NCBI GenBank assembly: GCA_021732085.1
Contig: JAKFVQ010000006.1
Coordinates: forward strand, 1-64,000
Source of the DNA: Candidatus Obscuribacterales bacterium
GTDB lineage: Bacteria > Cyanobacteriota > Vampirovibrionia > Obscuribacterales > Obscuribacteraceae
Reading direction: 5' to 3'
Length of the DNA stretch: 64,000 bases
Below the pieces are notes generated by a model. The model was not told where the DNA came from and did not search any database. It worked only from the letters and a program-made list of their open reading frames with translations. Shown piece after piece: positions 23,670 through 26,371 of the stretch. How positions within the stretch are numbered: position 1 is the first letter of the stretch; every line of letters starts with the position of its first letter. Position numbers and translations under genes: made by a program.

Positions 23670-24800
23670 ATGTTAACTGAAGACGAGAACAAGCTGACAG
23701 AAGAGGAATTGGCCCACTGGGTGGCGTTTAGCTTGCTCAATGGCATCGGTCCTAAGCGAATCCAGCTCTTAGACGAGCGCCTCGGCATCGTGACGGCATG
23801 GAACGCTTCGCCGGCAGTCCTGCAACGAATGCCCGGTTTTGGACCGGAATCTATCGCGGCGATGGAGCAGGGGCGCAAAGGGATCGACCCAGCCAAGCTA
23901 CTGCAGAAACTACGTGACGACAATATACAGGTCTGGACTTTAAAAGATTCGTTCTACCCCATTTACCTGCGCAACATAGCCGATCCACCACTTTGTTTGT
24001 TTGTAGTCGGAGAAATCAATTTTTCGGCATTCAATAATGTTGCGGCAGTAGTTGGAACCAGAAATCCGACTACTTATGGACAAAAGCTAGGCAAAGATAT
24101 TGCTCGCGGACTTTCTGAGAATGGAGTCACCGTCATTAGTGGCATGGCTATAGGCATCGATTCGCTCGCGCATTGGGGCGCCATCGAAGGCGGCTCGCCA
24201 ACTATCGCGGTGTTAGGATGCGGTCCGGATGTTTGTTATCCGTCATCAAATCGCAAACTATACAAAACGATTTTGGAACAGAACAAAGGCGCGATCATAT
24301 CTGAATATTTCCCGGGCACACAGCCCGAGAAGTTTAGGTTCCCAGCGCGAAATCGCATAGTCAGCGGTTTGAGCCAGGCTGTTGTGGTGATCGAAGGTGG
24401 TGTCACATCCGGTTCGCTGATCACAGCTCGCATCGCTTTTGATCAAAGCAGAGAGGTTTTTGCAGTTCCAGGAAGAGTGGACAGTCCGATGTCTGAAGGA
24501 CCGCATAAATTGATCAAAGACATAAAGGCGCATATTTGCACCGGCTATCAGGATGTTCTCCAAGAAATGAGCTGGCTGAAAGTACCCGGCAAGGTTGAAG
24601 GCGACAGACCGACTGCAGTTAAGTTATACGGACGAGAGAAAGAACTCTATGACCTTATAGAGTTGGAACCAATCCACTTCGACACACTATCTGATCGAAC
24701 CGCTATGCAGGCCGGAGAGCTTTCCGCATCACTTACCATGTTAGAGCTGGCAGGGCTGGTCAGCCGCTTGCCGGGCGACTGGTATGAACGCGCAAAATAG
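23670..24800 (+). CDS. dprA: DNA-processing protein DprA
   Basis: 376 residues with an N-terminal helix-hairpin-helix/SAM-like part (LLNGIGPKRIQLL, RMPGFGPESIAAM) and the Rossmann-like DprA core. The core has VVGTRNPTTYG, VISGMAIGIDSLAH, AVLGCGPDVCYP, FPARNRIVSGLS and EGGVTSGSLITAR. A C-terminal winged-helix-like part (ELYDLIELEPIHFDTLSDRT) follows. DprA loads RecA on incoming single-stranded DNA in natural transformation. GAAAG precedes the ATG. Other competence genes are not in the window. The gene is transcribed toward the aspS leader and has no obvious terminator before it. Confidence 0.96.
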   Translation: MLTEDENKLTEEELAHWVAFSLLNGIGPKRIQLLDERLGIVTAWNASPAVLQRMPGFGPESIAAMEQGRKGIDPAKLLQKLRDDNIQVWTLKDSFYPIYLRNIADPPLCLFVVGEINFSAFNNVAAVVGTRNPTTYGQKLGKDIARGLSENGVTVISGMAIGIDSLAHWGAIEGGSPTIAVLGCGPDVCYPSSNRKLYKTILEQNKGAIISEYFPGTQPEKFRFPARNRIVSGLSQAVVVIEGGVTSGSLITARIAFDQSREVFAVPGRVDSPMSEGPHKLIKDIKAHICTGYQDVLQEMSWLKVPGKVEGDRPTAVKLYGREKELYDLIELEPIHFDTLSDRTAMQAGELSASLTMLELAGLVSRLPGDWYERAK

Positions 24801-24827: not shown

Positions 24828-24857
24828 TTGACGTGCTTACGGAACTGCTCATAAGAT
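24828..24857 (+). promoter_or_regulatory. Sigma-70-type promoter candidate for the aspS leader
   Basis: TTGACG at 24828-24833 and TAAGAT at 24852-24857 with an 18-base spacer. Transcription would begin near 24864, before the leader peptide. It starts 28 bases after the dprA stop. Confidence 0.5.
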
Positions 24858-24917
24858 TTGAGTATCCGCAACCGGTGAAATTTTGTGTCCACAGAAAGCA
24901 TGCACGCAATAGGTTTG

Positions 24918-25007
24918 ATGAGGAGCCTCTCAGAAGTGGCTCCATGTGCTGCTGCTAATAACAATAATAATAACGACGATAGCACTGCAATTTGCTGGTG
25001 GTCTTGA
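24918..25007 (+). CDS. Leader peptide with six Asn and two Asp codons (aspS attenuator)
   Basis: A 29-codon frame, ATG 24918 to TGA 25005-25007. After MRSLSEVAPCAAA come six consecutive Asn codons (24957-24974) and then two Asp codons (24975-24980), followed by STAICWWS and the stop. An in-frame ATG at 24900 would add six residues; neither start has a strong ribosome site. The run of codons for the amino acids handled by the downstream synthetase is what defines a leader peptide of the trp or his type. The last codons overlap the antiterminator segment 24994-25005, so a ribosome reaching the stop would cover it. Confidence 0.7.
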   Translation: MRSLSEVAPCAAANNNNNNDDSTAICWWS

Positions 25008-25080
25008 CGTTATCGAATAAGAGATAAGAAAAGAATCCAAAGAGCCCGCCAGCAAGCAAAACTGGCGGGCTCTTTCATTT
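24994..25080 (+). promoter_or_regulatory. Attenuator: antiterminator/terminator alternatives before aspS
   Basis: Segment A (24994-25005, GCTGGTGGTCTT) can pair with segment B (25040-25053), with eight contiguous pairs including one G-U, a 2-base bulge, then four more. Segment B also forms the 5' arm of the terminator with segment C (25062-25075). A resembles C in sequence, as expected for competing partners. A ribosome stalled on the Asn or Asp codons ends its footprint at about 24975-24993 and leaves A free, giving antitermination. One at the stop codon masks A, giving termination. A small GGAGCC/GGCTCC hairpin at 24922-24943 could serve as a pause site. Confidence 0.7.
25039..25080 (+). 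terminator. Intrinsic terminator directly before the aspS start
   Basis: A 14-bp perfect stem (25039-25052 with 25062-25075) with a 9-base loop, followed by TTTCATTT. Its 3' end lies only 13 bases before the ATG at 25094, with the ribosome site GGGAG between. A terminator in this place can only control the gene that follows. Confidence 0.9.
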
Positions 25081-25093
25081 CGGGAGAAAAATC

Positions 25094-26371
25094 ATGAAAG
25101 CTGAATCAAGATCGCAGGAGATCACACTTAAAGGACATATTTATGCCAAGCGTAAGCTGGGCAGCCTGATCTTTCTGGTCCTCCGCAACCGCGAAGGGCT
25201 GCAGCAAATTGTCTTTGATCGAGCCGATCTCGTTTCACAACTTGAAGAGCTGAGCCTGGAAACGGCTGTGCTCGTTGAGGCCGCATGGCGCGAGAATCCA
25301 GAGAAACCCGGCGAACTGGAGCTTGAAGGGCGTTCCATTGAGGCAGTCTCGGGAAACCGAAGCATCCTTCCAGTTGAAATCTCAAAAGAGAAAAGAATGG
25401 AATCATTGTCGCTCAACGCGCTTTTAGAATATCGCCCACTCACATTGAGAAACGAAAAGATTCGTTCGATATTCAGGATTGAAGCGGAGCTCTGCAAGGC
25501 TTTCAGGAACTTTCTGAACAGCCAGGGCTTCACTGAGATTCATTCGCCAAAAATCGTGTCAACGGGCACCGAAGGCGGTGCACAGGTGTTCACAATCAAT
25601 TATTTCGATCGGCAAGCATTCCTTGCCCAGAGCCCTCAATTCTACAAACAGATCATGGTTGGAGTTTTCGAGCGAGTCTTCGAAATCGGCCCTGTTTACA
25701 GGGCCGAGGAGCACAACACGGCAAGGCACTTGAACGAATACGTCAGCATGGACTTTGAGATGGGCTTCATCGAAAGCGAGCAATGCGTCATGAAGATGCA
25801 AATGCGATTGCTGAAGTACATGATGGAGCATTTGAAGGAGTATTGCGCAAAAGAGTTTGCACTCTTCGGCAAAGAGATCCCAACGTTCGAATCTGCCCCT
25901 CAGATGAAATTGATGGAGGCTATAGAGCTGCTGCAATCTAAACTGAACTGGAAGACTGAATCGGCCGATCTCGATCCCGAAGGCGAGCGCCTTCTCTGCC
26001 AGTATATGCAGGAGAAGGAGGGAACACAGTTTCTCTACCTGACTCATTATCCGCAAACGGTTCGACCGTTCTACGCAATGCCTGAAAGTGGCACGCCATA
26101 CACGCATAGTTTCGACTTGCTGTTTCGCGGATTAGAGATAACTACCGGCGGTCAGCGTATTCACCAATATGAGCAGCTCGTACATTCCATCGCAGGCCGC
26201 GGTATGAACCCCGAAAGTTTCACCGACTACTTGCAATGCTTCAAAGCAGGTATGCCTCCACATGGCGGACTGGCATTTGGCTTAGAACGCCTGGCCAAAC
26301 AACTGCTTGAGCTAAAGAATGTGCGTGAAGCCTCACTCTTTCCGCGCGACAACACTCGCATAAGTCCATAG
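25094..26371 (+). CDS. aspS: Aspartyl-tRNA synthetase, archaeal type (AspRS2, probably non-discriminating)
   Basis: 425 residues, the short archaeal-type AspRS without the bacterial GAD insertion. An N-terminal OB fold (about 10-100) binds the anticodon. The class II core has motif 1 near GFTEIHSPKI, the TEGGAQVF and FLAQSPQFYKQ segments of this family, motif 2 FEIGPVYRAEEHNTARHLNEY and motif 3 GLAFGLERL. RGLEITTGGQRIH is typical of AspRS, not AsnRS. Proteins of this class in bacteria often charge both tRNA-Asp and tRNA-Asn, the latter then amidated by GatCAB. The OB-fold specificity position carries Tyr in GHIYAKRK where discriminating enzymes have Trp. The upstream attenuator with Asn codons fits a role in Asn-tRNA formation. 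The tRNA specificity is inferred. Confidence 0.92.
   Translation: MKAESRSQEITLKGHIYAKRKLGSLIFLVLRNREGLQQIVFDRADLVSQLEELSLETAVLVEAAWRENPEKPGELELEGRSIEAVSGNRSILPVEISKEKRMESLSLNALLEYRPLTLRNEKIRSIFRIEAELCKAFRNFLNSQGFTEIHSPKIVSTGTEGGAQVFTINYFDRQAFLAQSPQFYKQIMVGVFERVFEIGPVYRAEEHNTARHLNEYVSMDFEMGFIESEQCVMKMQMRLLKYMMEHLKEYCAKEFALFGKEIPTFESAPQMKLMEAIELLQSKLNWKTESADLDPEGERLLCQYMQEKEGTQFLYLTHYPQTVRPFYAMPESGTPYTHSFDLLFRGLEITTGGQRIHQYEQLVHSIAGRGMNPESFTDYLQCFKAGMPPHGGLAFGLERLAKQLLELKNVREASLFPRDNTRISP

Follow-up and report, generated by a model that had tools for sequence, protein, structure and literature searches.

The window analysed here, a 64,000-nucleotide stretch of DNA, comes from Candidatus Obscuribacterales, that is, from the Melainabacteria, non-photosynthetic relatives of cyanobacteria. 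Along its + strand, dprA (end at 24800) is followed by a promoter-like pair of hexamers, a leader frame, a hairpin and, from 25094, aspS2, a gene for an archaeal-type aspartyl-tRNA synthetase (AspRS2). The elements of this locus are the following.

24828..24857, + strand: predicted promoter, TTGACG-18-TAAGAT (chance level in the window alone; TTGAC-N16-19-TAnnnT in 40 of 42 loci)
24874..24878, + strand: Shine-Dalgarno-like GGTGA of the leader frame (same or similar motif in 4 of 4 same-genus loci)
24885..25007, + strand: leader frame, 40 aa, GTG start, TGA stop at 25005-25007 (frame-keeping indels)
ATG 24900 and ATG 24918, + strand: alternative in-frame starts of the leader frame
24957..24980, + strand: control codons, six for Asn (24957-24974), then two for Asp (24975-24980) (mixed Asn/Asp run in 42 of 42 complete leaders)
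24992..25005, + strand: segment 2, 5' arm of the predicted antiterminator, in the last codons of the leader frame (duplex against shuffles; covariation)
25039..25055, + strand: segment 3, the shared arm, pairing with segment 2 or segment 4 (duplex, covariation, blocked-base folding)
25062..25080, + strand: segment 4 and T tract, 3' arm of the predicted intrinsic terminator (stem -25.9 kcal/mol; covariation)
25094..26371, + strand: aspS2, archaeal-type aspartyl-tRNA synthetase (PRK05159 and TIGR00458 over cut-off; best solved relative 1n9w)

An earlier reading of this DNA, made from the sequence only, had taken the region upstream of aspS2 for an Asn/Asp leader-peptide attenuator. The features it listed, namely a short frame with six Asn and two Asp codons, a segment in its last codons, a 14-bp stem, a promoter-like pair and the ATG of aspS2, were found as described when the sequence was re-read. 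The distance between terminator and ATG needs a qualification: the stem ends 18 bases before the ATG, and the 13 bases given earlier are obtained only by measuring from the end of the T tract at 25080.

The leader in the family and its reading frame

A protein search (E 1e-70 or better) found aspS2 in 44 of 50 genomes of the family. The loci were gathered as a first 30, all 30 of which carry the run, and 14 further ones; L035, which lies at a contig end with 68 nt upstream, was then left out, reducing the 44 loci to 43. Protein matches of L035 and L037 began at residue 73-75, and their gene starts were moved upstream; for L034 and L037, the terminator and the pairing were searched with a shifted limit. 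A frame with an Asn/Asp run, together with a terminator, precedes aspS2 in 42 of the 43 loci, and these 42 represent 20 genera. Lack of the Asn run in relatives had been named as a finding that would speak against an attenuator, and its conservation argues the other way. The sole exception, L044 (G027:C4:64001-65254), has neither the run nor such a terminator, and its AspRS2 is just 42% identical to that of the window, so this locus may be a separate acquisition.

Among the best 80 aspS2 loci of a wider genome set, 26 belong to the same family, mostly to the same contigs, and are not independent; 25 of them have the frame, and L057 has too little upstream DNA. Outside the family (54 loci among the best 80 listed), one similar frame was found, in a MAG labelled Proteobacteria (L126:371-412). 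This frame, MDDNDDDVRRRLL, has GGAGG before its ATG and lies about 106 nt upstream of aspS2; no clear T-tract terminator was seen at L126, and the frame is possibly an independent Asp/Asn leader. In one more of these 54 loci, L091, Asn/Asp codons take 6 of 10 positions inside an 82-residue frame, and the rest reach at most 5 of 10.

The promoter-like sequence is a case in which the window by itself says little, with one site found versus 0.8 in shuffles, whereas the set of loci is informative: TTGAC-N16-19-TAnnnT occurs in the 220 nt that precede the run in 40 of 42 loci, with 0.5 expected from shuffles, and is missing upstream of the run only in L022 and L023. The start of the leader frame, previously placed at ATG 24918, is probably GTG 24885, because an in-frame GTG situated 69-72 nt before the run is kept in all four same-genus loci and is closely preceded there by GGTGA, GGTGA, GGAG or AGAGG. 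As a side observation, only 9 nt separate the end of the -10 hexamer from the leader ATG in two loci of genus g12 (L020 and L037), so that a 5' untranslated region is nearly absent; translation of such leaders may therefore be possible without a ribosome-binding site.

Comparison among the loci indicates that the run is read as codons and that its frame is maintained, from which we predict translation. The run spans of the 42 leaders hold 326 RAY (Asn/Asp) versus 2 RAR (Lys/Glu) codons, the synonymous codons being intermingled. Indels were compared between pairs of loci within the eight genera represented by at least two (30 loci). Inside the frame, 67 of 79 have a length divisible by three, compared with 31 of 87 between the stop and the terminator, these pairs not being independent of one another. 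The best ten-codon window of each leader contains 5-10 Asn/Asp codons, and the second-best frame of the same region 2-5; the least distinct cases are L030, whose best frame (5 of 10) ties with another upstream frame, and L007 and L013, with 5 of 10 only.

Both amino acids are present in each of the 42 runs, Asn with one to eight codons and Asp with two to five. When the labels were shuffled, the mean number of loci with at least two Asp codons was 32.2, and none of 20,000 trials reached the observed 42; with one locus per genus, 20 of 20 stand against 15.3 expected, and 6 of 20,000 shuffles were as good. Since the shuffles fail to reach 42 of 42, the Asp codons appear to be conserved for their own sake, and we regard them as seemingly selected and not incidental. 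Asn nevertheless exceeds Asp in the runs (219 versus 107 codons) and comes first in 34 of 42 leaders, while Asp occurs later than Asn in 36 of 42.

The choice among synonymous codons has to be weighed here as well. AAT outnumbers AAC by 161 to 58 in the leader runs (L001-L043), whereas the aspS2 genes have 179 AAT and 244 AAC; the runs may favour the codon that is slower or less structured. Such a bias would also fit a general translation sensor, in which the leader responds to slow translation of whatever cause and the Asn/Asp run serves as a spacer that lacks structure and is read slowly; folding agrees with this to the extent that stalls at other places close to the run would expose segment 2 too. 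A spacer, however, needs no Asn/Asp identity, which makes the near absence of RAR codons hard to account for, and the two amino acids retained throughout the leaders both fit the enzyme encoded downstream. We therefore consider a general sensor very unlikely.

Searches for further leaders gave little beyond aspS2. Six-codon RAY runs, sought in four genomes, gave 44 matches in G000, the genome of the window, versus 40 for the reversed control pattern. The four genomes held 37 distinct stretches, two of which are the aspS2 leaders of G000 and G001. No second leader, and hence no wider Asn/Asp leader regulon, was found among the seven of the 35 other stretches that were inspected: in L129, L133, L137, L147 and L132, the runs lie inside frames of 977, 898, 1006, 524 and 264 aa, respectively, and these candidates were rejected; in L148 (104 aa) and L131 (26 aa), they lie in short frames. 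By eye, the 450 bases before asnS of G000 have no Asn/Asp run. A scan of the window for run-bearing leaders returned the aspS2 locus, an overlapping out-of-frame one and three weak matches resembling chance.

Two exclusive pairings and the position of the ribosome

In the window, TTGCTGGTGG (24992-25001) is complementary, with one G-T pair, to CCGCCAGCAA (25046-25055), and the terminator is a 14-bp stem (25039-25052/25062-25075). Segments 2, 3 and 4 of the window read GCTGGTGGTCTT, GAGCCCGCCAGC and GCTGGCGGGCTC; in many loci, segments 2 and 4 are CTTGCGGTC-like and segment 3 is GACCGCAAG-like. The 2:3 duplex of the window is worth -20.4 kcal/mol versus -12.1 +/- 2.6 for shuffles (0 of 300 as good), and the fold of 24880-25093 has a z of -3.44. 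The arrangement also recurs in relatives, and it does exceed chance. Across the family, the 2:3 duplex is matched by at most 15 of 300 shuffles in 39 of 42 loci and by at most 3 of 300 in 33 of 42; in L013, L017 and L019 it is no better than shuffles.

Covariation was assessed on a MAFFT alignment (A1) of all 42 loci that was not fitted to structure and in which L030 is visibly misaligned in segment 3. For the 2:3 helix, 85.1% of cells are paired and covariation is 0.273, versus 0.158 +/- 0.013 in shuffles (0 of 500) and 0.025-0.070 for slid versions; for the 3:4 helix, the corresponding values are 95.5% and 0.429, versus 0.180 +/- 0.018 (0 of 500) and 0.015-0.099. The slid versions are to be read with the origin of both ten-pair helices in mind, for these come from a single row of the 42, L011, and a structure of such origin favours itself over slid versions; the shuffles, for their part, ignore relatedness, and related sequences can exceed every shuffle. 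The double changes, seen across several genera in seven of ten pairs of the 2:3 helix and in six of ten pairs of the 3:4 helix, are a stronger point than the shuffle scores. Hence, the 2:3 pairing, whose loss in relatives had been put forward as a second finding contrary to attenuation, is both conserved and covarying, and one arm that covaries with two partners is the pattern that a switch predicts.

The leader frame might be incidental and control might be exerted elsewhere, by a repeat-binding protein acting on RNA or DNA or by translational coupling, and the three segments do form repeats that a protein could bind. This would leave it unexplained why the leader keeps a reading frame and the identity of its codons; moreover, a binding site needs neither an arm that covaries with two partners nor the T tract that follows in relatives. 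We find this explanation barely plausible.

A predicted intrinsic terminator lies between leader and gene in all 42 leaders. The + strand T tract of the window is interrupted (TTTCATTT), which is why a standard terminator scan reports the hairpin for the - strand alone. A T-rich tail is also present on the - strand of the window hairpin (25039-25075), which could thus act in both directions.

The comparison drawn earlier with the logic of trp and his attenuation holds in one respect and fails in another: the mutually exclusive antiterminator and terminator covary, whereas a segment 1 pairing with segment 2 is conserved in 0 of 42 loci (at 10 or fewer of 200 shuffles). The hand-anchored table made for the segment 1 work omits L013, L023, L027, L029 and L043, in which the anchor is absent. 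With no conserved segment 1, untranslated leaders should read through, unlike those of trp and his.

The consequences of ribosome position were modelled with a footprint that extends from 15 nt ahead of the first P-site base to 16 nt beyond it. In 42 of 42 leaders, the run contains at least one codon at which a stall would free the core of segment 2, and in the window all eight codons have this effect. With the ribosome at the stop, the core would be covered completely in the window; among the 42 leaders, half of it or more would be covered in 21 and some of it in 37, and, under the assumed footprint, none of it in five (L009, L019, L026, L039 and L041). Folding of the window leader under alternative pairing constraints, as had been recommended, agreed with the proposal: in blocked-base folding with the RNA ending at 25055 or 25060, the antiterminator had a probability of 1.00 with a stalled ribosome or none and of 0.00 with a ribosome at the stop. 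In the whole leader, the terminator dominates in every ribosome state (by 9.3 kcal/mol without a ribosome). Since the complete leader favours the terminator whatever the ribosome does, the switch must be kinetic. The switch of the trp attenuator is likewise kinetic.

Taken together, we think it likely, and hold with good confidence, that the aspS2 leader is a ribosome-mediated transcription attenuator that switches AspRS2 on when charged tRNA-Asn or tRNA-Asp is short. Sequence comparison establishes the leader frame with its codon run, both pairings and the promoter motif; from these we infer stalling, read-through and a metabolic bypass in the following way. Transcription would begin just downstream of 24857, and a ribosome would enter at GTG 24885. 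With charged tRNA-Asn and tRNA-Asp in ample supply, it would run to the stop at 25005 and cover segment 2 (24992-25005), so that segment 3 (25039-25055) would pair with segment 4 and transcription would terminate near 25080. With charged tRNA-Asn (or tRNA-Asp) scarce, the ribosome would stall within 24957-24980. Segment 2 would stay exposed and would form its duplex with segment 3 ahead of the synthesis of segment 4, so that RNA polymerase would continue into aspS2. The resulting AspRS2 would charge tRNA-Asn with Asp, and GatCAB would convert this Asp-tRNA-Asn to Asn-tRNA-Asn, giving an inducible bypass of AsnRS and free asparagine.

AspRS2 and a probable second route to Asn-tRNA

The protein encoded by aspS2 passes both NCBIfam models of aspartate--tRNA(Asn) ligase, PRK05159 with 540 bits (cut-off 353) and TIGR00458 with 414 bits (cut-off 368), and stays below the cut-offs of AsnRS models. 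Its best solved relative is 1n9w, named a non-discriminating archaeal-type AspRS, which we take to come from the Thermus/Deinococcus group of archaeal-type AspRS2. Two residues of the anticodon-binding domain distinguish discriminating AspRS (Trp/Lys) from non-discriminating AspRS (His/Pro). At the first position, the family AspRS2 proteins have Gln (23), His (10), Tyr (6), Glu (2), Leu (1) or a gap (2) and never Trp; the second position is mixed. The AspRS2 of the window has Tyr and Pro.

The sequence-only reading had advised looking for gatCAB and for the absence of asnS. The outcome is divided. In G000, which is 70% complete, asnS, asnB, glnS and gatB are all over their cut-offs, and a 606-residue frame on contig C18 resembles bacterial-type AspRS (a weak match). 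The presence of asnS, and of asnB too, thus counts against that part of the proposal. On the other side stand the ligase models, gatB beside GlnRS and the tRNA-Asn genes. Two clearly different tRNA-Asn(GUU) genes occur in G000, L163:1498-1572 (C28) and L166:1501-1573 (C8), and both have U1-A72, a pair that is needed by bacterial GatCAB according to PMC4206432. One of these genes encodes CCA and the other does not. The same paper states that no bacterium is known with both routes to Gln-tRNA, and GatB kept beside GlnRS therefore points to Asn-tRNA. Because of GatB beside GlnRS, the U1-A72 tRNA-Asn and the two ligase models, a role of AspRS2 in Asn-tRNA formation is still likely, and the enzyme probably provides a second, inducible path to Asn-tRNA rather than the only one.

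AsnA was found in 0 of 60 relatives. In the family, gatB is over the cut-off in 37 of 50 genomes. It is below the cut-off in the other 13, 11 of which are among the 44 with aspS2. Four aspS2 genomes have no gatB over the cut-off despite completeness of 89-93%: G004, G008 (90%), G025 (93%) and G034 (90%). Since four of eight genomes in the genus of G025 and G034 have gatB, the gaps may in part be assembly gaps. Two genomes, G018 (96% complete) and G012 (90%), have aspS2 and gatB and no asnS over the cut-off.

It might be supposed that the leader mainly reads Asp, with AspRS2 serving as a discriminating reserve AspRS for tRNA-Asp and the Asn codons being one-base neighbours of Asp codons. The Asp codons found in every leader, the asnS and asnB genes of G000 and the aspS2 genomes with gatB below the cut-off would all suit such a leader. 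What it does not explain is the excess and the leading position of Asn in the runs, the match of the protein to aspartate--tRNA(Asn) ligase models, the retention of GatB beside GlnRS in G000, or the gene content of G018 and G012; we give this alternative very little credence. The attenuator proposed here would offer an answer to the question of why AspRS2 and GatB are retained in a cell already equipped with AsnRS, asparagine synthetase and GlnRS: the second route would be a regulated bypass, called up when Asn-tRNA falls.

Comparison with known systems

Leader-peptide attenuators have been described for trp, ilv, trpS and leuS in Actinobacteria, where Cys candidates are reported too (PMC1262725), and for hisS/hisZ in Firmicutes (PMC2965389). 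The specificities named in PMC3766115 are His, Leu, Thr, Trp, Ile/Val and Phe, and in a Shewanella screen aspS is listed with a 'tRNA synthetase leader' of unspecified kind (PMC2659441). No Asn/Asp leader peptide at aspS or asnS was found in the literature searched, which covered few subscription papers and some sources in part, and no leader-peptide attenuator in Melainabacteria was found there in print. If our reading is true, asparagine and aspartate join the amino acids read by leader-peptide attenuators. The aspS2 leader shares with these systems a cognate codon run, a terminator before the gene and an exclusive antiterminator, as well as, in some of them, a tRNA synthetase as the target. 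It differs from them in its Asn/Asp specificity, in the two amino acids combined in one run, in having no conserved segment 1 and in its Melainabacterial host.

The absence of a T-box, remarked on before, was borne out: Rfam RF00230 matched neither the window nor any of the four family loci to which it was applied (L001, L002, L008 and L030), and we rejected a T-box reading of the leader. T-boxes do lie directly upstream of aspS2 in 3 of the 54 outside-family loci among the best 80 listed (L086:2674-2940, L105:2663-2887 and L111:1438-1669), which come from two Chloroflexi/Chloroflexota MAGs and one Firmicutes MAG. T-box versus leader peptide at aspS2 is a sensor swap of the kind described for hisS in PMC2965389.

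As regards gene content, G000 resembles the genomes with the non-discriminating AspRS2 of Thermus/Deinococcus (PMC4206432), where an extra archaeal-type AspRS likewise accompanies AsnRS, GlnRS and GatB; unlike them, G000 also has asnB. As regards purpose, the nearest case is the T-box of Clostridium acetobutylicum (Saad 2012, 2013, as cited in PMC4206432), where an extra AspRS making Asp-tRNA-Asn for GatCAB is under a tRNA-Asn-related sensor. That T-box binds uncharged tRNA directly, whereas aspS2 has a leader predicted to be translated instead. It is tempting to see in the aspS2 leader a minimal three-segment attenuator whose single leader peptide reads Asp-tRNA and Asn-tRNA, the substrate and product sides of tRNA-dependent asparagine synthesis, and which switches on a starvation bypass in at least 20 genera of one Melainabacterial family. 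This full picture, for which we see the chances as evenly balanced, would make the leader a ribosome-based counterpart of the Clostridium two-tRNA T-box.
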